Below, in pieces: positions 2 to 46,770 of a stretch of 47,436 nucleotides of DNA. This DNA is from Spirogloea muscicola (Eukaryota > Streptophyta > Zygnematophyceae > Spirogloeales > Spirogloeaceae). Within the stretch, counting starts at the first letter, position 1, and each line of letters opens with the position of its first letter. Under the pieces are notes generated by a model. It was not told the DNA's origin, ran no database searches, and worked only from the letters and a program-made list of their open reading frames with translations. A program made the position numbers and the translations under genes. The stretch is taken from positions 249,329 to 296,764 of the forward strand of contig WELB01000060.1 in the NCBI GenBank assembly GCA_009602725.1, read 5' to 3'.

Positions 2-3215
<3,214 letters not shown>

Positions 3216-3719
3216 GCCCCCAACAAGCGGAAGTGATTTAAGGAGGTGATACAGTAAGTTGGGTGTTGGAACACATCAACTTCTACTTCAGATATCTCAC
3301 AGGTGAGCACAGCCACCAGAAGTACTTTCCTGCTGGATGGGGAGCAGATGACCCTTCCTGACATGACCCGATAGCGGGCATGTTGAGGCAGCCAGGCGAT
3401 GGTGCCTGCTGCGCAGCTCAGCCCAACTGGGCAAAGCGCCGTGCTGGAGACTTTGTTCGCTGCAGAGCCTCTCCCTGCGAGCAGACTCTGCCTCTCGCCT
3501 GCCGCTGGCCCTCTATGCCCGAGCTTGGCCAAGGTGGAGTCAAGACGGTCGTCGAGTGTGCAGAGTCAGTCGTTCCACGCACTCCACGAAGTCGTGACCT
3601 TCGCCCCTCCTCAGGCTCTCAAGCCCGGGCGAGCCAAAGTCGACTAAGCCGCGAAGCGTGGACTTTACCCGTCCTGGGCAGCACGTTGACTCGCCGTCCT
3701 GTGGGCAGTTGACTCTGAC

Positions 3720-3785
3720 TTTGGCGCGAAGGGAGGGGGGGGCCTTACAGCCGGGTAAAACCACAGATTTGCTTTTCCCGCCAAA
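3720..3785 (+). promoter_or_regulatory. Two E2F-like sites upstream of the TXNDC9-like gene
   Basis: TTTGGCGCGAA at 3720-3730 and TTTTCCCGCCAAA at 3773-3785 both match the E2F/DP core TTTSSCGC. They lie in the 675-bp gap between the thiolase stop and the first readable TXNDC9 exon. Paired E2F sites mark cell-cycle-regulated promoters in plants and algae. Function here is inferred from the motif only, and the gene's true start is not visible. Confidence 0.4.
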
Positions 3786-3804
3786 TCCGGCGCGAGTGAC
3801 CGGA

Positions 3805-3888
3805 GGCGGCGGCGGCGGCGGCGGCGGCGGCTTCGGCGGCGTCGTCGGCTTCGGCGGCGGCTTCGGCGGCGTCGTCGGCTTCGGCGTN
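3805..3888. repeat. GGC-rich array with two 30-bp units ending at an ambiguous base N
   Basis: A GGC trinucleotide run (about 3805-3830) passes into a 30-bp-period tandem repeat. The same 26 bases occur at 3831-3856 and 3861-3886. The array stops one base before the only N of the window, at 3888. The coding sequence of the TXNDC9-like gene begins immediately after it. The place is typical of a collapsed or unresolved assembly point. Confidence 0.75.
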
Positions 3889-3890
3889 AC

Positions 3891-3966
3891 TTCTTCGCCG
3901 GCGCCCGCGCCAGCCGCCGCCTCGTCTGCCACTTCTTCCGCGACAACTGGCCCTGCAAGGTCCGCC

Positions 3967-4001
<35 letters not shown>

Positions 4002-4655
4002 TGCTCTGGCTCAGGATTTAGATTGGCATTAGGTCGGATTAGGTCGGATTCAGGTCGGCTGACGACGGCCTTGCCGGCGCCGCCGTGGCCAGGTCGTGGA
4101 CCGGCACCTGAAGGAGCTGGCGGCGCGGCACCTGGAGACGCGCTTCGTGAGGCTGGACGCGGAGAAGAGCCCCTTCCTGGCGGAGCGCCTCCGCATCTTC
4201 ATGCTGCCTACCATCGCCGTCGTCCTCGACGGCAAGGCTGTCGACTACATCGTGAGCCGCCGCCGGCATACGGCCGTGCCACGATGACCCGCTCGCTGTT
4301 GGCGCTGTGGGTCCGCTGATGTAGTCGTGAACACCCTCTGTATGCACCTGGCTGGGCTTTACCGCCGCTAAAAGTATGTTATCAGCCGCAAACTCTTCAG
4401 TGACGGATTATCTGTTGTCTTTGCGACCGATCGCACACTCACGCTTTGTCCTTACGATCGTTTCTCCAGGTGGGTTTCGACGAGCTCGGCGGAAAGGACG
4501 ACTTCGGCACGGAGGTTCTGGAGCGGCGGCTGTGCAAGGCCGGCGCCATCTTCAGCGAGGACGCTTTCGATGTCCACCGGGCGGACCCGGCTCCCTTGGC
4601 CTCGCGCAGCGTGCGGCAGGCAGCGCAGTCGGACAGCAATGAGGACTTTGACTGA
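3891..4655 (+). CDS. TXNDC9: Thioredoxin domain-containing protein 9 homolog, N-terminus missing
   Basis: Phosducin-like/thioredoxin-fold protein; the family (TXNDC9/PLP3) binds the CCT chaperonin and modulates actin and tubulin folding. Exons visible: about 3891-3959 (ends RRLVCHFFRDNWPCK), 4093-4251 and 4470-4655. They are in phase with GT-AG introns. Exon 2 carries VVDRHLKELAARHLETRF and PFLAERLRIFMLPTIAV; exon 3 carries VGFDELGGKDDFGTEVLE and an acidic SDSNEDFD tail. The position of the thioredoxin CxxC holds only NWPCK, as in the family, so no redox activity is expected. The N-terminal coiled-coil part before FFAGARASRRLV was not found. The sequence upstream is a GGC array containing the single N, so an assembly gap or an unrecognised upstream exon is likely. 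A long GCG run (about 3969-4001) lies in the first intron. Confidence 0.85.
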
Positions 4656-6134
4656 TCCTCTGCTGCTTCTTCTCGTCGTCGTTATGATTCCTTCCGCCCA
4701 GCCGTGCGCACTGGCCTTCAACGCATGAGCACAGGCAGGTTATTAATATTGACACGGGTACAGAGGTAGTGTTTCATGGTGCAAAGAACTTTCGAAGCGA
4801 TAGTCCACATCGTAGGTAGCCAGTCGCACTTGCCATCAACGATCTGTGGGAAATGCGAATTGGCCGCTCCAACCCAGTTGCATCAGAATGGGCTGCTGCT
4901 TGAGCTTGCCAAGATCATATCCATCAAATCATTGTTGCCAACAGGCGGTGCCTCTGCGTATGGCGGCCTCGTGAAAATAATGCCAAGCCCTCTTAGAAGA
5001 TCCTTAAGATGTATGATGCTATGATACAAGAGTCAAGGTCATCGACATCTGCTAGCACGTCAAGAGCAAGCCGGCTCCTCTCTAAATAGCAAGCAGTCTG
5101 ATAGTCGCACATCTCAAGGGCAGGATTTGAGGCATAAAGAGACCAGCAATGTAGTGCAGGCGGGCAAGGGAGCACGCTACTGAAGTGGGGAGCATAGGAG
5201 CAAGGAACGCAAAAGCCGTGAGCGGCTTGGAGTACAACAAGAAGTAAGCCATTGTATATGTGCTAACAACTCTCATTGGGACTTCCCCAATGACCTCCTG
5301 TTTCATGCTTCCGACTGGCAAATCATAGCCACCCTCTTCGGAAGAGAGTGACCCTACTCAAGCAACATAAGGATGCACATTCCAGCAATGGCGTTCCCAC
5401 TGAATTCACCTGGCAGCTCGGTATGACTTTATCAAGATGGGCTACACTAGAGGAAAGACAGCAATGGTGACCGGACAAGTGAAGCCGCGAGGCCAGATGG
5501 ACTCATATCCACTGACAATGAGAGTGGACAGTGATCAAGTGCCCCTGCTCAATCCTCAGCATCTGTCTTCTTGCCCAGGATCGCTGTCTCTACGTTCCGC
5601 AGAGTTCGCATTGTGGAGTTCGTCGACCTGCTGGCAACATCGCATGCAGACAGCGGTCTTCTGTCAAGGTTTGACTTAAAGGGCGCGCACTCAGAGTATT
5701 GATTCGCTATTCCTTGCACATGCATCTACCCTTGCCTCTGCAGCCTTGCAACACTGAGGCTAAGTACTACACCGAAAAGGTTCAAGGATCAAGCTGGGGA
5801 AAATGCCAGGCTTACCCCTTACCTGGTACCCCCATGTCGCGGCAACAGCCGTGCAACCTCCACAGAGCCACGTGGTGGGCCAAAGCAGCAACAGAGGAGG
5901 CGCTGCACACGGTGCGTCAAGGTCAATCCCAGAGCAGCACTACATGCAGCAGTGCTGCTCAATACGTTGAGACCACTGGTATAGCTATATTGGACGGGCA
6001 GCAATCGTAAACACAACTCCTTCCTTTCTGTTGAAAGTCCGTAAGTTGTGACAAGCTTGGCAGGGCCTCCACGAGGAAGCTCCACGAAGTGCAGCCACAA
6101 GAGCGATGCAACCAGACCCCTTACCTGGAAGTTT
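4656..6134. other. No convincing gene; gap between TXNDC9 and LRR copy A
   Basis: Both strands were read. Only short unrelated open frames occur. On the minus strand there are pieces that could be 3' exons or 3' UTR of LRR copy A, for example a stretch near 5640-5540 with an acceptor-like CAG followed by an open frame of about 23 codons. None could be joined with confidence. No kinase motifs (VAVK, HRD, DFG) were seen. Confidence 0.5.
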
Positions 6135-9100
6135 TCACTTGAAGCCAAGCTGCATGCCCCGGCAATTGCAGAATATGACTAATTGCTGAGAGAGAAATCT
6201 GGTCCTGAACTGTGACAAGCACTATCAAGGCGCAGGTGCTAACCTTCGTCCTCCTGACACCGCAGATGGCGACCAGCAACACCACTGCAAACACCACAAC
6301 CCCCGCAATAATTGCTGCCATTGGGATGTCTCCAGCAGAAGCTCCGCTTAGCACCAAGGTCGAGCACTTCTGGTCTAGTGGTGGACCGCAGAGCCCACCA
6401 TTGCCTGCAAAGCCTGAGGCAGGCAATGTGGCCAGCGCTGATGGTATCTCTCCTCTAAGGTTGTTGTATGAGACATTGAACCACTCAGTGCCATGCTGGA
6501 GGTTCCATGAAGCTGTTTAAGAACAAAGAAATATTTGAGTCACAATTTAGGAAAAACATCTAACCCCAATTACAGCTGCATGCACAAAGGCTCGAGGGCT
6601 TAGATGCTGCTCTTATGTTACTACCTGCCTTGTTGTTCTTCTTACTTCGAAGTTTCAAGCTATCATGCTTCAGAAGTGACAACGTTGACCAGCAAGAATC
6701 CATTGCAGTGGAGGTCACAACACCTACGACGCTTCTCTGAAGGCATGACTTCGAGATACTCCACCACGATGAACTGCCTGACTAGCCAGAGAAAAGAGCA
6801 GGCAAACTGCTCCAAAGTAGAAGGGTTGACCTGGTATATTGCCCGTCAGCTTGTTGTGCGCTAAATCAAGTGCTTTCAGATTTGGAAGCTCTCCCAAAGC
6901 CTCAGGGATGGCACCAGTCAGCTTGTTGTCATTCAATTGCAGGCCAGTGAGGCGGGTAAGCTTGCCAAGCTCTTCGGGTACCTCACCTGTCAACTGATTC
7001 CTGTCAAGGTATATGTACTCAAGGGAGTCGATGTACCCAAGATTAGAAGGTATGTCACCTGTGCATGCATAAGCACTTGTTATCAGGCCACCATATTCCT
7101 GACTCAATGGAGAAATTCTAGTAACTTGCTCATCATCAGGTGTCCAGCTGTGGAGCTTAGTTCCACATTGCTGCTAGTGCTGCATTTCAGGTCTGGTCAT
7201 AGGCCAGTAGCTACATGTTGGATACATGGGGCCTGGGAAGCATACCTGAAAGCTCGTTGTCAGAGAGCTGGAGGTCAACCAAGCTCTTGAGGCGGCCAAA
7301 TTCTTCAGGTATGCTTCCCGAGAGCTTGTTTGAATAAAGATAGAGCAAGCTCAATTCTGCGCAATTGGCCAACTCCGAAGGAATCGGCCCACTCAAATGG
7401 TTGCTGCCAATCTCAAGCAACCTGAGTGCAGCAATGTTCCCCAGCTCTCGTGGAATGCTTCCTGCCGACAATATACAATTGCCAATATGCATTTGCTTAG
7501 AAGAGTAGAAAAGGAAAGCTGAGTGAAAGTCAGGGGGGACGGACACAAGAGAGACCAGAGTCTGTGCAATTTCAGGATCCAATAGCACAGAAAGGCAGTG
7601 CTGCTATGACACCTGTGAGCTCGTTGACAGATAGATAAAGAGTGTCAAGCTGAGTTAAGCGTCCCAGCGACCGGGGTATTTCACCAGCTATCTGGTTGTA
7701 GCTGAACAGCAGCATGTCAAATTGTCAGAAGGTAGCTTGTATTGCAAGAAGCTCTTACACATGAAAGGAGCAACTAAATCACAGCCTCAGCGGCATTGCA
7801 GATCTGTTATGTGTGCACCTAAGGAACAAGCCAAGCATCAGAATTTTGAAAAGATGTAGCTGATACGTCACAAACACCTTTCCTTCACTAGTGCTTCCTA
7901 TCAGTGGTCAACCTACCTCAGGCGGATATCACTAAGACTCATGCTGTTTCCAAGCTCTGGAGGAAGTTCACCGCTTAAGCTGTTATTGAATAGGAGCAGA
8001 GTGTGGAGCGAGTTGCATCTGGCAAGCTCAGGGGGTATGGTCCCGGAGAGCTGATTGGAGCTGAGGTCCAGAAGATGCAGCGCCCCTAATTTTCCTAGCT
8101 GGTTCAATACAGACAGCCACAAATGACAAGTTGAGTGCTCAGGAATGATGCAGAAAATTCAGGCTTCCAAGATGGCACCTACAAAGAGCTTGATATTGTC
8201 AGTGATCAGCATTGGTTGACTTTGAAGCTGAATCACAGGTCTCAATCCCTGTGTTTCCACAAGTTGAATATGCAGTTTCCTAACATTTCGTAGAATGTGA
8301 TAAGCAGCGCAAACGTGGATCAGAATCAATACTGCAGTAAAACTCTGACAAGCTTACAACTGGGGGTATTGGCCCAGTGAGCCGATTGTTGGCTGCTGAC
8401 AAAATCTCCAGATTGTGTAGATGGCTTAGCTCAAGTGGAATGGACCCAGTCAGAAGATTTCCATCCAAGTGCAAATACTGCAGTCTCATCAGACTACCTA
8501 AGCTTGGTGGTATTTCTCCTCCCAAAAGATTTTGCGTAACTTGGAAGTCTTCAAGATTCTCACACTGACTCAAAGAGCTAGGTATACTACCTGCAGCCAA
8601 AAATGACACACGCATTGTTAGGACTTGCTCGCAGCTGATCAGCACGACTGAACATATTGTAATCGCCACTCCTTACGTATTGCAGTCACTGAGCAGTTGC
8701 CTATCTCAAATTGCCAATCTCACATACCGGTCAGCTGGTTTCCTGCAAGATATAAGACTTTCAGCTGGTTGAGGTTCTCAATATTCTCAGGAATCTCTCC
8801 AGTGAGGTAGTTCATCTGCAACTCTAAGTCCTCCAATTCCACGCATTCAAATAGCTCTGCACAGCCTCAGATGTCCACTAGTCATGCAATGAGCTGCTCC
8901 TCCAAGCAGAGGGCAGGTGTGCAAGGAAAGACGGACTCAGGCAATATTTCTGCGCTTCACTGAAGCAAGGGTCATGACTGGAGTTTATATGCTCCTCACT
9001 CACCGATCGGTATGTTGCCTGTCAGCTGATTTCGCCAGAGGAGGAGGCTTTTCAAATCCTGCAGCTGCCCAAGCTCCACAGGTATCTCTCCCTCCAGATC

Positions 9101-10847
9101 GTTTGTGTCAAGGTCGAGGTGGAGAAGGCTGTGACAATTACCCAACTCGGGAGGGATATAGCCTGATTGGAAGAATCCACAATGCAACCGTGCTTGTTGT
9201 ATGATGGGAAAGTTGCAACAAGTCACATGAGTTTGTAACAAGATCAGACAGGACATGAACAAGTGGCATGGTAATTGAAGCAAATAGAACTTGTCCACCG
9301 TGTAATCAAGGAGAGTGATCTGTACCACTGAGCTGGTTGGTGTGAAGGTAAAGAGCCTTCATTTTATGCAGATCTCCCAGCTCCTTTGGTATTGTCCCTG
9401 TCAGGTTGTTCAGAGATAATTGCAGCTCCTGCTTGCCACAATACAATCAAGATTGTCATCAGCTGCACAACATGCGCCAGGTTGACGCCCAGTGACAACC
9501 GTCAGCAAAGAAGACAAACACCTGGGTGGCGGGATGCCATACAAAATGGCAGTGGCATGCGCCAGCATGATTGCAAAGAGCAACTCAGAGAGCTGTCAGT
9601 ATTGACCTCAAGGTTATGGAGCCGGCCTAGCTCCTTGGGCATATTTCCGACCAAGCTATTGTTCTGTATGAACAAGTAGGTCAACCTCCAAAGGCTTGAC
9701 AATGAGCAGGAATAGTTCCTCCCAGACAACTGTCCCCGAGATAGAGCCTCTTCATGCGCGTACAACCTCCTAGTGAGTCCGGTATTCCCCCTGCTCACAG
9801 GAAAGGTGTGCTTCAGTGCCAGCCCAACCAATGTGTGAAAGATGTATGCTAGACTGATCGCACTGCCACTAAAGTCTTGCAAACCCGCTTCAACTGATAC
9901 TTGGAGAACAAACCAGCAAGGGACACACGAGGAGAAAGAATGGTTGAACTTGCCCTGGAATTTGTTATTCTGGAGTACCAGGTACTGTAATCCGCTGAGG
10001 TGGCCAAAGCTGGCAGGTATTACACCCCCGAGGGAGTTGTTTGCCAGGTTCAGACTCTGCAGTGTAGTAAGCTCCCCAATCCTCGGTGATATGCTGCATA
10101 GACCCAATCAAGATCATGCTAAGAGTGCTTCCGGATGGAACATAGTAAGCAGGCGTTGCAGTGCGCCTCATCAGGAACTAATAGTTTGCCAAAAATGATT
10201 TCGGGTGCAAGCTCTAGGGCAACTTCATGCACACGGACAGTGGGCACTGTACAGTCACAGACCTCCCTTCAAGTTCTGCACTATTGAGGTCAATCTTGAC
10301 GACCTGCCCATGACGATTGCACGTTATGCCAGACCACCTGCCAAATGCCGCGCAGGCGAGGGACCATACTCAGAGGCAAGTGTCCATTGTGGTAACTTAT
10401 TGATGAGCATTCCAGTAGTGCTGTTCTGTATGCATGATGTTCCAGACAGCTCAAGAGCTGCACTTGTGCTAGGTCCAGCACATCCAAAAGCGATCCTCCT
10501 CATTATGTAAATCGTCATATAATTAAGGACGACAACTCACGGAGGTGTGCAGGGGCTCAAAGCCGCCTCTGTCCAGTCATCGAGTAGGCCTGGCGGGCTC
10601 TTCAGGGTCCGCTGCAAGAGCGCACGGGCGGAGGATGGCTGATCAGCCCCCGGCACACGTCCATCAAGACGAGCTTGCAAGTATGGAGGACGCCATACTG
10701 GTAAGCGCCCTGCCCGTTGTTCACCTTGACCTCGAGCAGGGCGACGCCGTCGGGAGTGAGGCTGTGCACGCAGGGCCACAGGGAGCAGCAGCATGCGGCG
10801 GCCAGCAGGATGGCCGCCACCGCACGGAGGCCCCGCGCGGGCCTCAT
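6135..10847 (-). CDS. LRR receptor-like protein, copy A (signal peptide, ~22 LRRs, one TM, no kinase found)
   Basis: Plasma-membrane LRR receptor-like protein of plant type; ligand unknown. Start ATG is at 10847 and is followed by a signal peptide (MRPARGLRAVAAILLAAA). Exons (minus order): 10847-10731, 10611-10541, 10337-10263, 10093-9950, 9694-9607, 9428-9326, 9162-9004, 8856-8728, 8590-8358, 8098-7917, 7701-7613, 7461-7246, 7058-6831, 6512-6244, all in phase. The order is LRRNT cap (TPDGVALLE...GLLDDWTEAALSPCTPP, WSGITCNRHGQ), about 22 LRRs of the xIPxxLGxLxxLxxLxLxxNxLxG type, then FNVSYNNLRGEIPS and GFAGNGGLCGPPLDQKC. A single membrane helix (AAIIAGVVVFAVVLLVAI) ends in GVRRTK. A last exon 6185-6135 with 16 codons plus stop would close the frame, but this tail is tentative. 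One repeat near 9694 is short, so a micro-exon may be missed. The ectodomain is secure; the cytoplasmic end is not. Confidence 0.85.
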
Positions 10848-11033
10848 CGCCGCGCCCGCGGCCGCGCGGCGGCTCTCACGGCCGCCCTCGCATTCGTGCG
10901 GCGCGACGCTTCGGAGATGTCGCGGCCAGACTGCCTCCGGCCGCCCCGGCGACCGGCGAGAGAAGAGGAGAGCTGCTCCTGGCGCGTCTCAGCTCTGCCT
11001 CCGGCGGACGCGGCAGATTCCGCGGCGCGCTGA

Positions 11034-11069
<36 letters not shown>
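11034..11069. repeat. CGG microsatellite upstream of LRR copy A
   Basis: About twelve CGG units lie 190-220 bases 5' of the copy A start codon, on the promoter/5'-UTR side. The corresponding region of copy B lacks this run together with its flanks. Confidence 0.85.
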
Positions 11070-11070
<1 letters not shown>

Positions 11071-11337
11071 GGATCGCAGTAAGCAGGCGCGCCTTTCCCC
11101 GCCGAAAGGATTTGGAGACGGACCGTTGAGCTCGGGAGGCGGACAAATATCTGAGGTATGCCGGATTCTGGACGAGGGCGGCTGGGAGGAGCCGGGAGCT
11201 CGGGGCCACGGAAAGAATTAGCGCCCGCTCGGATTGGCGGTGCCTGCGATCAGCCCGACGGAGAGGGAAGTCCCCATCGGGCGGCCGCTGCTTGCCTCGT
11301 GTCTTGGTTTGACCACCAGCAGAACGACTGTCTCGCT

Positions 11338-11944
11338 GCTTGTTGTTGTTGCCAATATGCTTAATTTAGAGGGTGTGTGAGCAGAAAAGCGCTTCCGGAA
11401 AGAGATGAGGCCCTCTGGGTTTGTGTTTCATTCTTCTGTTCTTTGCTGGGCTGGCTAATCACAGCCATCGCCCTCGACTGAAAGAGTTTTCTTGCCAAAG
11501 CGCGGGTTGCGCATGAAATGCAAGGGAGGCCAACTTAAGCCAACACAATGTTCAGGCAAAACTTAGCACAGAAAAGAAAGACTCTTCCAGCAGAGGGCGA
11601 TGGCTGTGAATTGGCTATTGCAGACTGTTGGGGCCACATCATATGAAGCCCTTTGCTAAGGTGGCGAAGGTGCGACGTTAGCACCCACGAGGAAGTAGAA
11701 CAAATTCGACAGGCTAACTTGGGGGAACAGGAGCACCGCCACGGGAAGGAGGCGGTGGCTGTGACAGGCCAGCCCCAAAAGAGTGGACAAACTCCAAGGA
11801 AGAAGCCCAGTCACATAAAACAGGGCAGACAGCTATGTCCTTTGTCATCTTCGTGCTCTCTCTTGTGTAAGACTTTGTCAGCACTCTTGCAAAACAGCTG
11901 TTTGAATACTGTAAAATGATAGTATTATTAGTAATAAATATGTA
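11338..11944. other. Spacer between the two LRR copies, packed with repeat fragments
   Basis: Homology between the upstream regions of copy A and copy B stops near 11337 (15929 in copy B). The spacer up to about 11944, where copy B homology starts, has no gene. It holds an inverted pair of repeat fragments (11457-11612) and a weaker fragment near 11745-11800 (GGCCAGCCCC followed by GAGTGGACAAA) that resembles the element at 39.4 kb. Confidence 0.6.
11457..11612. repeat. Imperfect inverted repeat made of two interspersed-repeat fragments
   Basis: The left arm 11457-11493 is the reverse complement of the right arm 11574-11612 at roughly 85 percent by eye, with a 17-base exact core GAGGGCGATGGCTGTGA and about 80 bases between arms. 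The same core block appears in direct orientation at 12223-12252 and, diverged, at 39285-39310. The arms are therefore copies of one repeat family in opposite orientation rather than a unique hairpin. Confidence 0.75.
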
Positions 11945-14900
11945 AAGATAGAGCAAGCTCAGTTCTTTACGATTGGCCAACTCTACAGGAGTTGGTTCAC
12001 TTGAATGGTTGCTGCCATTCTCAAGCAAGCTGAGTGCAGCAATGCTCCCTAGCTCCCGTGGAATCCGTCCTGCTAGCATGTTACAATGTTCCTCAATGCA
12101 TCTGCTTAGCTCCCATGTATCGACAGTAGCAAAGGAAAGGTGAGTGAACGTCAGGGGTGAGGGGCACAAGACAGATTGGAGTCTGTTCACTTTCAGGTCC
12201 CAACAGCTCAGAAAAAAGAGGAAGACTCTTCCAGTAGAGGGCGATGGCTGTGTTGGCCAGCCCAGAACATAGGATGAATGAAGTTCGAAGGGGCCAGAAA
12301 AGCGCTGAAGCTCCTCAAGCTGAAGCAACTCAAGTGGCCACACCCAACTTATCCCCTGCTGAGCAGCCGCGTAGAAAAGCACAGCACAGACAAGCAGTGC
12401 TGCTCTGATACCTGTGAGCACGTCAACAGATAGATAGTGAGTGTCAAGGTCAGTCAAGCGTCCCAGCTACAAGGGAATGACACCAGCTATCTTGTTGGTA
12501 ATTGAACAGCAGCATGTCAAACGTTCAGAAGGTAACTTCTTTGCGCGACAAGCTCATTACACGTGAAAGGAGCAACTAAACCACAGCCTCAGCGGCATTG
12601 CAGATCTCTCGTGTGTGCACCTAAGACGAAGTCAAGCATCCATTGATTGAAGTGATGCAGCTGATAGGCTACAAACAGCTTCACTGGTGCTCCCTCTCAG
12701 TGGTCAAATTACTTCTGGGCCGATATCAATAATATTGTTGCTTAAACAAGCTCTGGAGCAAGTTCACCGCTTAAGCTGTTATTAAACAGGAGCAGAGTGC
12801 GCAGCGAGTCGCATTTAGCAAGCTCAGGGGGTATGGTCCCAGAGAGCTGATTGGAGCTGAGGTCCAGAATAGTCAGCCCCCCTAGCTTTGCCAGCTGATG
12901 CGACACAGCCACAAATTACAAGTTAAGTGCTAAGGTATAAAGCAGAGGGCTCGGGCTTCTATGACAGAAAGCTTGATGCTGTCTGGAATCAACGTTGATT
13001 GACTGTGCAGCTGAGCCAAGCCACATCTTCCAATCACTATGATTCTCTCAAGTTAGATTGTCGACTCCAACATTTGTAGATTGTACAAGCAGCGCACTGG
13101 TGGATCAATCGTAAGTACTGCAGTGGCAGTCCGAGAAGCTTACAACTGGGGGTATGGGCCCGGTGAGCTGATTGTTGGCTGCTGACAGAATCTCCAGATT
13201 GTGAAGATTGCTTAGCTCAAGTGGAATGGACCCGTTCAGATGATTTCCATCCAAATGCAAGTACTGCAGTCTCATCAGACCTCCTAGGCTTGGTGGTATT
13301 TCTCCTCCCAAGAGGTTTTGCGAAACTTGGAGATTTTCAAGATTCTCACACTGACTCAAAGAGCTAGGTATACCACCTGCAGCCAGCAGTAAACAACATT
13401 GTTAGGAAATGCTCGAAGATGATCTCAACGTTTAGGCTACATTGTGATCGCTAATCAATATCTATTGCAGTCCCTGAGCAGCCTTACATACCAGTCAGCT
13501 GGTTTCCTGCAAGATATAAGACTCTCAGCTGAGTCAGCTTCTTTATACTCTCAGGAATCTCTCCAGTGAGGTGATTCGTTTGCAACTCCAAGTCCTCCAG
13601 TTCCACGCATTCGAATAGCTCTGCACACCATGCTCACTTGCACTGAGCTGCTCTGCCAAGCAGTGGGCAGGTATGCAAGGAAAGACGAACTTCAGACTCT
13701 CTCTGTACGTTTCAATGAAGCAAGGGTCATGACTGATGTTGCGATGCTCCTCACTGGTCGGTATGCTGCCTGTCAACTGATTTCGGAAGAGAAGGAGGCT
13801 TCTCAGCTTCTGCAGCTGCCCAAGCTCCACAGGTATCTCGCCCTCCAGATCGTTTGTATCAAGGACGAGGTGGAGAAGGCTGTGACAATTACCCAACTCG
13901 GGGGGAATGGGGCCTGATTGAAAGAATCCACAATGCAACCTTGCTTGTCTTATGATGAGAAAGTTGCAACAAGTCACATGCAAACTTTAACAAGATCAGA
14001 CAGGACATGCACAAGTTGCATGGTAATTACAGCGAATAGAACATGTCCACCGTGTAATCAAGGAGCAACTGTGATCTGTACCACTGAGCTGGTTGGTGTG
14101 AAGGTAAAGAGCCTTCATTTCATGCAGATCTCCCAGCTCCTTTGGTATTGTCCCTGTGAGGTTGTTCAGAGATAATTGCAGCTCCTGCTTGCCACAACAC
14201 AATCAAGATTGTCATCAGCTGCACAACATGCGCCAGGTTGACGCCCAGTGACAACCGTCAGCAAAGAAGACAAACACCTGGGTGGCGGGATGCCATACAA
14301 AATGGCAGTGGCATGCGCCAGCATGATTGCAAAGAGCAACTCAGAGAGCTGTCAGTATTGACCTCAAGGTTATGGAGCCGGCCTAGCTCCTTGGGCATAT
14401 TTCCGACCAAGCTATTGTTCTGTATGAACAAGTAGGTCAACCTCCAAAGGCTTGACAATGAGCAGGAATAGTTCCTCCCAGACAACTGTCCCCGAGATAG
14501 AGCCTCTTCATGCGCGTACAACCTCCTAGTGAGTCCGGTATTCCCCCTGCTCACAGGAAAGGTGTGCTTCAGTGCCAGCCCAACCAATGTGTGAAAGATG
14601 TATGCTAGACTGATCGCACTGCCACTAAAGTCTTGCAAACCCGCTTCAACTGATACTTGGAGAACAAACCAGCAAGGGACACACGAGGAGAAAGAATGGT
14701 TGAACTTGCCCTGGAATTTGTTATTCTGGAGTACCAGGTACTGTAATCCGCTGAGGTGGCCAAAGCTGGCAGGTATTACACCCCCGAGGGAGTTGTTTGC
14801 CAGGTTCAGACTCTGCAGTGTAGTAAGCTCCCCAATCCTCGGTGATATGCTGCATAGACCCAATCAAGATCATGCTAAGAGTGCTTCCGGATGGAACATA

Positions 14901-15603
14901 GTAAGCAGGCGTTGCAGTGCGCCTCATCAGGAACTAATAGTTTGCCAAAAATGATTTCGGGTGCAAGCTCTAGGGCAACTTCATGCACACGGACAGTGGG
15001 CACTGTACAGTCACAGACCTCCCTTCAAGTTCTGCACTATTGAGGTCAATCTTGACGACCTGCCCATGACGATTGCACGTTATGCCAGACCACCTGCCAA
15101 ATGCCGCGCAGGCGAGGGACCATACTCAGAGGCAAGTGTCCATTGTGGTAACTTATTGATGAGCATTCCAGTAGTGCTGTTCTGTATGCATGATGTTCCA
15201 GACAGCTCAAGAGCTGCACTTGTGCTAGGTCCAGCACATTCAAAAGCGATCCTCCTCATTATGTAAATCGTCATATAATTAAGGACGACAACTCACGGAG
15301 GTGTGCAGGGGCTCGAAGCCGCCTCTGTCCAGTCATCGAGTAGGCCTGGCGGGCTCTTCAGGGTCCGCTGCAAGAGCGCACGGGCGGAGGATGGCTGATC
15401 AGCCCCCGGCACACGTCCATCAAGACGAGCTTGCAAGTATGGAGGACGCCATACTGGTAAGCGCCCTGCCCGTTGTTCACCTTGACCTCGAGCAGGGCGA
15501 CGCCGTCGGGAGTGAGGCTGTGCACGCAGGGCCACAGGGAGCAGCAGCATGCGGCGGCCAGCAGGATGGCCGCCACCGCACGGAGGCCCCGCGCGGGCCT
15601 CAT
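11945..15603 (-). pseudogene. LRR receptor-like protein, copy B: intact 5' half, broken 3' half
   Basis: Tandem paralog of copy A. Start ATG is at 15603. The first exons map at a constant offset of 4756 bases from copy A (15603-15487, 15367-15297, 15093-15019, 14849-14706, 14450-14363) and carry the same signal peptide, LRRNT cap and first repeats. Further exons are open: about 14184-14082, about 13918-13760, about 13612-13484, and about 13375-13143. In the exon matching copy A 8098-7917 the frame ends early at a TAA (12742-12744), after SGELAPEL. The donor of that exon is also altered. Downstream exons are degenerate: another in-frame stop lies in the next repeat exon near 12475, and LRR consensus residues are lost near 12000-11960. 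The last LRRs, the GLCG cap and the membrane helix are absent. If expressed it would give a secreted truncated ectodomain; otherwise it is a pseudogene. Confidence 0.8.
12211..12380 (+). repeat. Interspersed repeat copy inserted in an intron of LRR copy B
   Basis: Copy A has no counterpart at the matching intron place: its sequence passes directly from ...AGCACAGAAA to GGCAGTGCTGCT. In copy B about 160-170 bases lie between those flanks. The insert begins with AGACTCTTCCAGTAGAGGG (12223 on) and contains GGGCCAGAAAAGCGCTGAAG (12291-12310). The latter 20-mer recurs exactly at 39411-39430. Possible short flanking repeats (AGCWCAGA) were noticed but are not clean. Confidence 0.7.
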
Positions 15604-15775
15604 CGCCGCGCCCGCGGCCGTGCGGCTCTCACGGCCGCCACGGCGACCGGCGAGAGAAGAGGAAAGCTGCTGCTGGCGCGTCTCAGCTCTGCCTCTGGAC
15701 CGGGAGCTCGGGGCCACGGAAAGAATTAGCGCCCGCTCGGATTGGCGGTGCCTGCGATCAGCCCGACGGAGAGGG

Positions 15776-15879
15776 AAGTCCCCATCGAGGATAGGGGCTG
15801 GACAAGCCAGCCCAAAAAAGAATGAACAAAGAACGATAAGGGGGCCAGAGGAAGCCAGAAAGTCCCCATCGGGCGGCCG
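15776..15879. repeat. About 90-bp insertion flanked by a 12-bp direct repeat, upstream of LRR copy B
   Basis: Copy A reads through GGAAGTCCCCATCGGGCGG near 11266-11284. In copy B the block AAGTCCCCATCG is present twice, with roughly 90 bases between that are absent from copy A. The inserted piece includes GACAAGCCAGCCCAAAAAAG and GGGGCCAGAGGAAGCC, resembling the interspersed repeat family of 12211 and 39282. The duplication looks like a target-site duplication. Confidence 0.65.
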
Positions 15880-15929
15880 CTGCTAGCCTCGTGTCTTGGT
15901 TTGACCACCCGCAGAACGACCGTCTCGCT

Positions 15930-16803
15930 TGAGTTCACTTGCCTCGTTTGGACCGTGTGTAAGAAAAGAAGCTCCTTTGGAGTCAAAATGACATTTGTAA
16001 GGCTAGAATTCGCCTCCCTTTCAATTTCATGCGCACCGCGCGCCTTCTCTTTGGAAAGGATGCGGTACTTGTGAAGGAAAAGCCCATTTACATTGTACTC
16101 TCAGCAAACGCTGTTTCGGTTGTCGTGATACTTTGTTCAGCACCCTTGCAGTACGGCTGTACTACCATTCCAGGTCGAAGCACTGTGGCTTGCTCCAGAT
16201 CCTCTAGCTGATACACAAACAGCAAGTCGTGCAAGACGGCTGTATAGAATTTCTGAAGTCCCCACACCACAGCTTGCTCCATGTCCTTTTGCTTGGTGGT
16301 ATTAAGCTATGACTTGCAGAGGGCTTGGCTGCTTCCAGTAAGCGCCAGCTTAGCTGCTGCACAGTCTATGAAATGTTGAAGTAGCTGGCGATTGCCCTTG
16401 GCGGCTTTAGTACAAGAACTCCCACACCCCCGAGGCTGCTAGAGAGTGCTGCTTCATGATGTCCACTTCTGACTTGGCAGACAGGTCTTGCATGTCCTAG
16501 ATCAATAATCAATACCGTTCCATACACTCTCAACCACACCTGCTCACACCTTCTGCTAGCATGACCGGAAATCATACAGACCGTTTCACTTGACTTGCAT
16601 GGGACAGCTTAATGGTTGGAGGCAGGAGCATTGCAAGATCGCAGACCTGTGTATTTTACACTTCTTTAATGTCAAGTCTGCTTGCATTCACCATCTCTTG
16701 TGGAATAGTTGAGAGTGTGCATGACTGAGACAACTCTTTCCTTGGAACTTGATTGAATGGTTTGCTGACGAGGCAAGAACAGCTTGGAATTCAGTAAATG
16801 CTG
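15930..16803. other. No gene seen between LRR copy B upstream region and the PSMA7 stop
   Basis: Apart from the 66-bp interspersed repeat at 15985-16050, no coding or RNA feature could be supported on either strand. Open frames are short and show no family resemblance. It probably holds the PSMA7 3' UTR on the minus strand and distal promoter of LRR copy B. Confidence 0.5.
15985..16050 (+). repeat. 66-bp interspersed repeat, copy 1
   Basis: Runs from AAAATGACATTTGTAAGG to CACCGCGCGCCTTCTCT. It matches 44688-44755 with one substitution and a two-base indel. The other copy forms the right end of a 203-bp insertion with a 13-bp target-site duplication, so this copy is probably the 3' end of the same element. 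No clear duplication was seen here. Confidence 0.8.
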
Positions 16804-19206: not shown

Positions 19207-19250
19207 CCGCCGCCGTCGCCGCCGCCGCCGCCGCCGCGCCGCAGCCGCCG
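19207..19250. repeat. CCG-rich microsatellite 5' of SERINC
   Basis: A run of CCG units with small interruptions, ending about 70 bases before the SERINC start codon at 19318, so probably in its 5' UTR or core promoter. Confidence 0.8.
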
Positions 19251-19317
19251 CAGCCGACGCCACCGTCTCTGGCGGAATTCCGTCTGAGGGGCCGTGGCCG
19301 TCGGTCACATCGAGCGG

Positions 19318-30660: not shown

Positions 30661-30824
30661 GGCGCGCCGGCCGTCGCCGCCACCGCTGTCGCCGCGGGCG
30701 GCGCAGCGCGCACGGGCGCGGACAGCTATCTCTTAGCTAAATTTTGGCTAAGGTTCCCCGTCATTCGTCCCTTCGCCCCGCCGCTGCCGCAGTCGACCTG
30801 GAGCCAAGGACTGCCGCCAGCGCA

Positions 30825-30857
30825 GCCGCCGCCGCGCCGCCGCCGCCGCCGCCGCCT
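30825..30857. repeat. CCG-rich microsatellite in the PUS7/BET1 divergent promoter
   Basis: CCG units with one interruption lie between the divergent starts of PUS7 (30660, minus) and BET1-like SNARE (30970, plus), only 310 bases apart. It is probably in the BET1 5' UTR. Confidence 0.8.
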
Positions 30858-30969
30858 GCTCGCCCGCCCCGGCCCGCCGTGCCTGTGCGGGCCTCTCGGC
30901 CTGCCTTGCGGACGCTTCGGCTCGCGCTCAGCCGCGCTGAAGAGGTGCAGCGCCGCCTGCCGCTGTCCA

Positions 30970-32324: not shown

Positions 32325-33117
32325 GCCTTAGAAACAATCACACAATGTCTTTGAGTACTCATTAGCAACCTGTGCAGGACGCTTTGGCATGATGTAGGCG
32401 CACAAAGTAATCTGCATCGAATCCCTAACTTGCGGGTGAAAATTGGTGGGTTATGTACTACCTCAGCGAGGCATATTCAGGATGCCCTGGTAGTGGAGAG
32501 CAGTCAGGTGCAGATGAGCAGACCTGTGCTGTTGCCTCAATCTGCGAGATCTGTGCACCCCATCGCGTAGTTCCACTTCAGAGTGAAAGTCAACACAAAG
32601 AATGATGGCCCTGGTTGCTCACCAAGGCTCACTTGCACCCAATGGCGGTCGGCCGCTACGGCTGCAGCAGCATGCGGTGCACTGGCGCAGGGAGTTGGCT
32701 CCACCCCTTCCTGGTTTCAGAGGCAAGGACGCAGACTCGCAGCTGCGCTGCCTCCACGAGAAGGCGGCTGCTGCACGTCGCTTTGCAGGCGCACGCTGAC
32801 AGATCGAAGAGAAGAAGCTTCCCCCAGTTCGAAAAGAATCATCCCTTACTTAATAATGGGTCATCAAATCAAGTAATTTGATCCAGCCTGTCGACGCCTT
32901 CTCTGCGGCAGCTACCACCGCAGCCGCCGACGCCGCCGCCGCCGCCGCAATCGCCGCCGCCATCGACGCGCTGCCGTGCGGCGTGGCCCGGCGGGTGTCG
33001 TAGCCGCCGCCCCAGCGTCGGCTACTCCGCGTGCGGTCTCGTGCCTGTGGCGGGAGCAGCCGGCGGGAGGAAATTGCTGTCCTACAGGCGCTGCAGAGAC
33101 GGCCCCCGAGGGAGGCC
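32325..33117. other. Intergenic region with CCG microsatellite, no gene seen
   Basis: Between the BET1 stop and the FYVE-ankyrin start. A CCG-rich run with interruptions (32921-32962) sits about 160 bases before the next start codon, in keeping with a promoter or 5' UTR. Open frames here are GC-rich shadows. Confidence 0.5.
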
Positions 33118-43344: not shown

Positions 43345-46089
43345 CTAAGCTGAATTAGGAGGTGGAGGTAGAAGGCCTTCTCTGGATGCCATCTCGTAGA
43401 TGGCGCAAGCAGCCAGAACCTTCGAGTCAGCGGAGCTCCGCCAGAGCTGGGGATAAGGCACAAGCCTGACCTGGATCAGCTCGCCGTGGTCTCTCAGGCC
43501 AGTTTTCCTGCCTCGTAACTGCTCTACAATCTGCCACGTGAAGGACAACTGCGTGAGATTGCCGGCATGTACAGCTACTGGCCTGCAACTTCATACATCA
43601 GGCGAGGTTTAGGAGATTGGAGGGCTGATTTTTAGGCTCACACAGAGTCGCAAAGGCTAATTCCTGCTTTTTAACTAAATTACCACAGATTGCCTGAAAA
43701 GTAGGTCCATGATTCTGATCAATACTTCGTAAACAACAACGCTCTGTTCCCAAACTGTTCCCAAACCGTTCCCAAAGTGAAGCTGGTGGACAAAGAGTGT
43801 ACCTCTTTGTCCACTTTTGTGCGGTAAAGAAAGAGGGTGATTTGTTCGTCACTTCCACCCTAAACAACAGGCAACATATTGGCATATCGTCAGGAAATGC
43901 GACAAACAGCACAGTGGGGTGAGAGAGGCCTGTTCTGGTGATTCCATCGCTGAAAGGCATCGAAGTGTTAAGTAGGCAAAGGGTTGAGAATGCCTGCTCC
44001 TCTATAAGACTCCATATGAACTCGTATGTCACATGGCAAGTTCTTTCACTTTCACGCAAGAGATGGACATACTGGAGATGGGTACATCTTCTGACTGGTA
44101 TCAGGGTCAAGTAGTGCTGTCAGATCCACAAGGTCCTCCGCCTTCAAGTGTATCCCAGTTTCCTCCTCAACCTGATAACATACAACAGGTGGTGAGCGCA
44201 CTTCTCTTCATGCTTCAAGGTTGCCAGTGATGAGGCTAATAGAGTTGCCCAGTTGCCAAGAAGGTAGTCTAGCAGCATTGTCATGCATCGTCACTGCATT
44301 GTCACTCCATCATTGTCAATTGGAGGGGCTTCTGCATCTTACCTCTCTAGCTGCTGTTCCTACGAAGTCGCCTTCACCATCATCGAGCATGCCTGCAGGC
44401 AGTTCAAGAATGGCTCTGCCCACTGGTACTCGAGCCTGGCACAGCTCGCCGCGCAGATCACGTGCTGGTACACATCATGAACAATCCATTGAGCAGAGGC
44501 TTCGACCTGCCTACAGCTGTGTCCATCTTCACATCTACTGTTAACTCGAGCATCACGTGCTGGTCGTGCATTAGCCCAGGCTAATGGCTTCCGTGGGGGT
44601 GGTTTGGCTCCTCAGTATAGCTTGTCCGATATGCATGTGCTCACTCGGGGATATTAGTGTTCCCCTTAGCCAGCTCATTACCCAGTTAAAATGACATTTG
44701 TAAGGCTAGAATTGGCCTCCCTTGTTCAATTTCATGCGCACCGCGCGCCTTCTCTCTTAACTCGAGCATAGTGCAAGCACCGAGGTATGATTGGAGCAGC
44801 TTCACTAATTTACAAGAACAAGCCGAGCCACTTTTCAACGATAGGAGAGGCTAAGATAAGGCATGACAAGCTACACCATTGATTCGTCACTCGTATATGT
44901 CAAGCAGTTGTGCACCTGTTCTGTAAGCACCGCATACTGCTCACCCTCGCACTCAAGCAGCATGAGTATCCCCACCGCTCCTCCCCGGGCGAAGACAATG
45001 CCTGGCAGCTGCAGCCAAGTCAAGCAAGGCTAATGCCGCAGCTCTCTTCAAAGCTTCTGCCTGTTATTGCACACGTCATTGTACCAGCTTAAATGTACGA
45101 GCTGGTTCTGTATGGTGTGTGACAAGGGAGTCAAGCAGTACAGGTTGGAGACATGGGAAGTGCTTTATCATCTGATGGCTGCCTCGGTTGCAGGTAGAAG
45201 TACTACAATTAATGCTCGACTGTTGTAAATTGCAGACCTTGCTTTGTGTTCCATTGTCGTAGATGTCCGCTTTGAACTTCACAAAGCCAACACGTTGTCC
45301 AAACATGTCCACGCTCTGGAAAAGGTTGACAAGTCCTTGACGCCGTTGTGTCAGTCGTTTCTCAGGGTGCTCACTCTCTTTGGTGTCCACACATGCAAAT
45401 TGCATGGTGACTAGGAGCTCACGGGCAAGAAGCTTGGCAGCAGGCAGATAGCCGTGACTCAAAGGCGTGAGTGCCTGAAGTTGCTCCTTGCAGTATGACT
45501 GGAGTGAGAGAATGTTCTGAACTAAGGTAAAGTAAATGATCCCAGGCTCGACCACAACATGGTCCACCATGAACTACAATGTCACCAGTGGCCAAAGGGT
45601 GCAGCAACAAAGGCCTTTCGTTGACCTGCACTACCCCACCTGGATTGTGATTTTGCGGAGAGTGCAGCCGAGGTTGAGGATACCGCCAGGGCCACGCAGA
45701 GCCTTCTCCCATTCCTTGAATGGCACCGATGCCAGTGCCTTCCTGACAATATTGACGAACCGCATAAATTACACCTGGAGCTAATGCCACGTCCAGCGAT
45801 GTTGATCTGTTTCATTTGGTCACAAATCTCCATCGTTACGCAGCTTAGCTTTCTGTTGACTGTTGTGGCACACATTTATCTCCTTTGCCTGCAAAGCGTG
45901 ACACAGTTGCTGGGACGTGCATCACGAGCTTGCGGACTTCAGCGTGCTTGATCCTCACTGAAAGGGTCCATGACCTTCTTGAGCCAATGTGCAACCTTAC
46001 TCTATCTCAGCTTCGCTGACGCCAGGCGCCCCGGTGACTTGCACTGGCAGCCCAGCAACGACGGCGTCCTTGGTCAGCCCTTCTGCCAT
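43345..46089 (-). CDS. NUDX14: Nudix hydrolase, ADP-sugar/ADP-ribose pyrophosphatase (NUDX14 type)
   Basis: Hydrolyses ADP-glucose or ADP-ribose to sugar-1-phosphate and AMP; the plant NUDX14 is plastidic and affects starch precursor levels. Exons (minus): 46089-46001, 45742-45640, 45315-45238, 45008-44916, 44435-44343, 44171-44073, 43859-43803, 43530-43345; 265 residues from Met at 46089. Blocks: VDMFGQRVGFVKFKADIY, PGIVFARGGAVGIL, EQARVPVGRAILELPAGMLD, then the Nudix box GMLDDGEGDFVGTAAREV with EEETGI, SDEQITLFLYRTKV, TGLRDHGELIQVRLVPY and ADSKVLAACAIYEMASREGL. The box has one more residue between Glu and Arg-Glu than the canonical GX5EX7REUXEEXGU, as in this subfamily. Upstream of Met the frame stays open about 40 codons with an Arg/Ser/Ala-rich sequence (SVARTVRKPVYRASSASTS), a likely plastid transit peptide. 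A first exon carrying the true start may lie further upstream. Confidence 0.92.
44541..44769. mobile_element. 203-bp non-autonomous insertion with 13-bp target-site duplication
   Basis: TTAACTCGAGCAT occurs exactly at 44541-44553 and 44757-44769. The 203 bases between (44554-44756) form the insert. Its last 68 bases (44688-44755) recur at 15985-16050, and the shared part ends one base before the right duplication. No open frame, terminal inverted repeats or poly-A tail were seen. A 13-bp duplication fits retroposition (SINE-like) better than most DNA transposons. It lies in the NUDX14 intron between exons 44916 and 44435. Confidence 0.8.
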
Positions 46090-46531
46090 AGAGGTCGACG
46101 CGCTGGACGCCCGGTATACTGGCTTCCTGACGGTGCGCGCCACCGAGCGGTTGCCGCTTGCGGCGGGCAGAGAGTTCAGCCTCGCGTTCTGCCACCGCGC
46201 AGGAGGCCACTACTGAGGTCAGCCACCACGGCTTCAGGAGGATGAGGGACGGCTGTCACTGAGGTCACGATGGTGGCGGGAGGCGACGCAAAGGCGACGT
46301 CAGCGCTGTGCCGTCTGGCATTGCGAACGACGGCTTCTGATGCTGCAGCGCTCGGCGGGAGAGAGGCGGCGCAGCGTCCACATCGTCAGTGAGACGAGTG
46401 AGTGGCCTCAAGGGCCGGGGCCTCCGCCGGGCGCGCCTCACCCTGGCGCAGTGGCCCGGGGCTCGGGCGGCCCTGGCGGCCACCAGCTGCGTGGCGTGCA
46501 GTCCCGCCCGGCGCAGGGCCTGCGCCGGCAT

Positions 46532-46576
<45 letters not shown>

Positions 46577-46770
46577 TGGATTTGCTGCTCACTGCCGGAG
46601 GAAGGGGAATGCTGGCAGCCTTGCCACGTGGCGGTACAGCACGAGCTGACGTGGATGCCAGGTCGCCGCCATGTAGGACGGTGCCTGCTGCCACCGTGGC
46701 GTGATCGGAGCGGCGTCTCCGCCCTCGCGGCCGGCTCGCTCGTCGAGGGCCGTTCGGCTGGAAGGGGGCT
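46090..46770. other. GC-rich region upstream of the Nudix gene,with CGG microsatellite
   Basis: Contains the putative transit-peptide coding stretch of the Nudix gene (to about 46213 on the minus strand) and an uninterrupted CGG run (46531-46575, about 14 units). Long open frames occur in several frames on both strands because of GC content, and none is supported. A minus-strand ATG at about 46325 followed by RRLPPPS and a GT could be the missing first exon of the Nudix gene, but this is guesswork. Confidence 0.4.

Follow-up and report, generated by a model that had tools for sequence, protein, structure and literature searches.

The window, a stretch of 47,436 nucleotides of Spirogloea muscicola DNA, carries two tandem LRR receptor genes, A and B, whose 5' halves are nearly identical and whose remaining shared sequence is strongly diverged. 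The mechanism that we infer for this pattern, and that very probably explains it, is ectopic gene conversion that recently overwrote the 5' half of one gene. Self-comparison of the window revealed a single main tandem pair, formed by 7335-11337 and 11943-15929, with both copies oriented alike and spaced by ~4.7 kb; A 9326 corresponds to B 14082, confirming the offset of 4756 in the original prediction. Judged from their sequences, A and B are old duplicates of a plant-type LRR receptor gene, with the following coordinates:

6244-10847, minus strand: gene A, LRR receptor-like; 14 exons recognised, chosen manually by splice site and LRR spacing and checked for phase
10725-10847 (E1), 10541-10611 (E2), 10263-10337 (E3), 9954-10093 (E4), 9607-9790 (E5), minus strand: gene A exons 1-5
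9326-9428 (E6), 9004-9162 (E7), 8728-8856 (E8), 8358-8590 (E9), 7917-8098 (E10), minus strand: gene A exons 6-10
7613-7701 (E11), 7246-7461 (E12), 6831-7058 (E13), 6244-6512 (E14), minus strand: gene A exons 11-14
11943-15603, minus strand: gene B, tandem copy covering exons 1-11 and a portion of exon 12, from self-comparison and alignment

The introns of gene A have GT-AG borders throughout, with a GC donor after exon 4 as the sole exception, and exons 6-14 form a single open frame of 536 residues. Exon 14 is the last exon recognised, and the 3' end of the gene beyond it is undefined. The protein matched the Pfam families LRRNT_2 (the cap; E 2.6e-9), LRR_1 (E 2e-59) and LRR_8; it begins with a segment that, by eye, resembles a signal peptide, and exon 14 encodes a hydrophobic segment, also judged by eye, that is putatively transmembrane. 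Among the 60 listed of 287 distinct sequences matched by exons 6-14, the best solved relatives were the plant LRR kinases GSO1, FLS2 and PEPR1, which share with gene A an LRRNT_2 cap and LRRs of plant type but are kinases, a domain not found for gene A. Introns together with LRRs of this type mark the window as eukaryotic, and the LRRs point to the green lineage. HRD-type and APE-type kinase motifs were absent from all six frames of the window, and the only minus-strand match beyond A among the six to a loose DFG pattern (at 3641) was isolated. Of the 24 minus-strand ORFs of at least 45 aa within 3000-6300, 20 gave no Pfam domain. Since neither motif patterns nor Pfam (ORFs of at least 45 aa) revealed a kinase domain belonging to gene A beyond exon 14, A looks like a candidate receptor-like protein (RLP) gene with an undefined 3' end. 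The only other gene recognised among the ORFs scanned was a plus-strand ORF at 2290-2844 with a Thiolase_C domain (E 1.2e-10).

Alignment of the two copies divided the shared gene into two parts:

9315-10870, minus strand: near-identical tract in A; starts 23 bases before the ATG and includes the first 11 bases of intron 6
14071-15626, minus strand: near-identical tract in B, as aligned to A 9315-10870
7336-9314, minus strand: old-divergence part of A, 330 of 1918 aligned columns differing from B
11945-14070, minus strand: old-divergence part of B, the same 330 of 1918 columns

Over its 1556 columns, the tract contains six substitutions (A 9365, 9402, 9442, 10484, 10559 and 10865) and no indels, and its longest identical run spans 1041 columns, compared to a maximum of 111 in 300 shuffles. 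The old-divergence part differs by substitution at 17% of aligned columns and by many indels besides, the rapid 3' loss of similarity that had been described before; for substitutions, the difference between the tract and the rest of the shared gene is highly significant (Fisher P = 3e-81). The best change point fell at A 9291 (2-lnL range 9291-9322), adjoining the exon 6 donor (exon 6 end 9326), with a gain of 184.5 lnL against a maximum of 11.7 among 300 shuffles, in which every fifth position was scored. In steps of 100 columns, counting aligned columns only (one step inside the B insert has none), identity ranged between 63.5 and 90% as far as A 9327, then between 97.7 and 100% over 9328 to ~10870. 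The near-identical block placed at 9445-10860 by the original prediction is therefore real, with few differences and introns included, but it is slightly longer than proposed. A stretch so much more alike between paralogues than the rest, beyond chance, is one mark of a conversion tract.

A second mark is that introns and exons have been homogenised equally. The tract takes in the whole of introns 1-5 as well as the first 11 bases of intron 6, and within it 2 of 837 intron positions and 3 of 696 exon positions differ, whereas outside it 210 of 1003 intron positions (21%) and 120 of 915 exon positions do. Because the introns are as alike as the exons, selection on the coding sequence cannot explain the identity and was rejected as its cause. 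By an intron clock, the duplication is ~100 times as old as the tract (roughly 29-850 times, allowing only for counting error in the tract), and a clock based on all sites gives a ratio of about 50 (0.195 to 0.0039). These results bear out the earlier argument that one duplication date cannot account for both halves, and give good support to conversion or an equivalent exchange over the signal peptide, the LRRNT cap and the first repeats. The G+C content of A introns 1-5, which lie in the tract (9429-10724), is 0.507, compared to 0.445 for A introns outside it; either GC-biased conversion or a simple 5' gradient could be the cause.

The inner edge of the tract is sharp, and substitutions are concentrated there (3 in 128 columns compared to 3 in 1428, P = 0.009). 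Furthermore, intron 6, its 11 tract bases included, is less diverged (16/163) than introns 7-11 pooled (194/851; P = 9e-5). Both observations are expected of repeated or graded conversion and suggest more than one conversion event. Across introns 6-11 there is a trend in divergence (P = 0.0075); introns 10 and 11 are less diverged than 8 and 9, so that the rise is not steady, a point against the conversion reading.

At the other edge, the tract leads into a flank that is also shared:

10871-11337, minus strand: upstream flank of A, blocks matching B 15627-15929, several indels
15627-15929, minus strand: upstream flank of B, reaching the end of homology

From 10870 onwards, a patch of indels lies upstream of the ATG, in which A has 3, 60 and 187 extra bases and B has 84. 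Four ungapped blocks beyond this point, extracted from local alignments, differ at 6 of 217 columns, a count that leans low since the unalignable parts were omitted; one block runs for 88 bases without a difference. Global alignment of the flank was poorer, with 46-87% identity in four steps over 10928-11327. Divergence of the blocks exceeds that of the tract (P = 0.0015) and is far below that of the introns outside it (P = 3e-13), and homology between the copies ends at 11337/15929. Divergence around the tract is therefore old on the intron 6/exon 7 side, while upstream there are only similar blocks split by indels and then the end of homology; this one-sidedness counts against conversion as the explanation, and the higher divergence of the flank than of the tract means that one event alone cannot account for the whole pattern. 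The similar flank reflects either an older conversion reaching the end of homology or a conserved promoter region.

Several repeats occur in the window. The 84 bases present only in B (15788-15871), the last 12 of which repeat the preceding 12, resemble by eye an insert in B intron 11 (12215-12382). GC-rich trinucleotide-type repeats occur at 3801-4004, 11034-11069, 19207-19260, 30813-30872, 32915-32961 and 46513-46605 and match one another on both strands; of these, 11034-11069 is upstream of gene A, within sequence that B lacks. A 72-base repeat, 94% alike and in the same orientation, is found at 15981-16050 and 44684-44755.

Gene B is both truncated and damaged. Its homology to A stops within exon 12, leaving it without the putative transmembrane exon, and while exons 6-9 are open, exon 10 contains a stop, and exon 11 is frameshifted, has lost its acceptor and carries a stop in the LRR frame. 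Stops, a frameshift, a lost splice site and truncation together mark this copy as a pseudogene. A gene unconstrained ever since its duplication would be expected to give a dN/dS of ~0.5 or more. The value for A versus B over exons 7-9 was 0.24 (bootstrap 0.13-0.39; 174 codons, one gapped codon omitted) and, because it is below this expectation, B was probably functional during much of its existence. The insert in B intron 11, absent from A, measures ~170-190 bases, two alignments disagreeing on its size. Part of it (12216-12252) recurs near the pair, at 11572-11608 and, inverted, at 11460-11491, so the insert belongs to a small local repeat family. In a search for a target-site duplication, no word of at least 8 bases from A 7560-7640 occurred twice in B 12151-12420, and the one 7-base word that did had both copies at the same end of the insert; no element was therefore named.

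Within the tract, we also found a fault in the reading frame that is common to both copies:

9607-9790, minus strand: exon 5 of A, frame change between its two LRRs, from phases and frames
14363-14546, minus strand: exon 5 of B, same frame change; all 184 bases identical to A

Exon 5 enters in the frame set by exon 4 and leaves in the frame that fits its second LRR and exon 6. A sequencing error would need to have occurred identically in both copies, and no further lesions were found in A exons 6-14. Because the identical change stands in both copies and inside the tract, the donor most likely carried it already, and conversion would have copied the lesion to the other gene. It may be that splicing around the frame change keeps the frame open. 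We attempted to identify the donor from lesion counts, A being open over exons 6-14 and B having lesions in exons 10-11, but given that B exons 6-9 are open as well, these counts do not decide the direction, and either copy may have been the donor. That the decayed B converted A, importing the frame change into an otherwise undamaged receptor gene, is a tentative reading that we consider less likely than not; if true, a pseudogene would have disabled its neighbour by copying a lesion over it. A literature search for pseudogene-borne frameshifts in plants, too narrow to carry meaning, found none.

One other explanation for the tract is an assembly artefact, which would have put a copy, or the second haplotype, of the 5' half of A in place of that of B. 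The six differences would be compatible with this, being a number that two haplotypes could show. We consider it improbable, as the tract in B is joined on both sides to B-specific sequence: it continues in register into the diverged intron 6, and at its other end it meets an upstream flank that has its own indels and runs into sequence unlike that of A. An artefact would require two in-register false joins in a single copy.

The original prediction had also allowed for unequal exchange. In-register unequal crossing-over near ~A 9315 would yield a hybrid gene and a third copy, which would have to be deleted later, and it would fit the one sharp edge and the similarity up to the end of homology on the other side. 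Such an event should also have carried the 605-base spacer on the right side of A (11338-11942) over to the right side of B, making plain unequal crossing-over the less likely form of exchange. The spacer is absent there apart from a direct 41-base match of 80% to the B right flank, which scored 31.9 bits, compared to at most 27.4 in 100 of 100 shuffles, and which the first duplication may have left behind long ago; short inverted matches between spacer and flank were found too. With an extra copy and an extra deletion needed, we rate this possibility lower still than an artefact. Strong selection holding the 5' half identical, introns included, can be dismissed, given the contrast between introns inside and outside the tract, the frame change in both copies, which hardly speaks for strong coding selection now, and the absence, at the gathering threshold, of any Rfam family from the window, which also led us to reject a structured RNA.

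Gene conversion between tandem neighbours explains why introns are homogenised too, why the inner edge is so sharp, why the copy number has not changed and why almost none of the spacer is seen to the right of B. In the sequence of events that we propose, a plant-type LRR receptor gene would have been duplicated in tandem long ago, giving A and B, and much later a break in one copy would have been repaired from the neighbouring copy, replacing ~1.55 kb that begins shortly before the start codon and ends early in intron 6. The donor, already bearing the exon 5 frame change, would have passed it to the recipient, and at some time B would have lost its 3' end and gained the stops in exons 10-11.

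A close precedent is described for tandem receptor kinases of the OAK/At5g59670 cluster in Arabidopsis thaliana accession Sha, which contain an identical 2.7 kb fragment beginning 13 bp upstream of the start codon, interpreted in that account as most likely a recent gene conversion (PMC3136440). As in the A/B pair, these are tandem LRR-containing receptor genes alike at the DNA level in their 5' half, the tract begins a short way before the start codon (by 13 bp, compared to 23) and ends inside the gene, and truncated neighbours are present. The Sha genes, as presented there, differ in being receptor kinases with malectin-like domains, whereas no kinase was found for A/B; their tract is fully identical, whereas ours, at ~1.55 kb, has six substitutions; and the A/B tract, unlike that of Sha as described, holds a common frame change (PMC3136440). 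A study of conversion in rice multigene families reports that it declines with chromosomal distance, that pseudogenes take part in 56% of conversions in one family class and 21% in the other, and that 69% of tracts are under 100 bases (PMC2277409). The A/B pair agrees with this in that near neighbours are favoured and the partner is often degenerate, and receptor-like kinase families are among those named for conversion, A and B being receptor-like genes; the ~1.55 kb tract, in contrast, is far longer than most in rice (PMC2277409).

The mechanism of gene conversion is itself well known, and the unusual point here is the reading-frame fault present in both copies. The pair provides a clean example of tandem receptor genes exchanging their 5' halves, and implies that conversion can propagate not only useful changes but also damaging ones.
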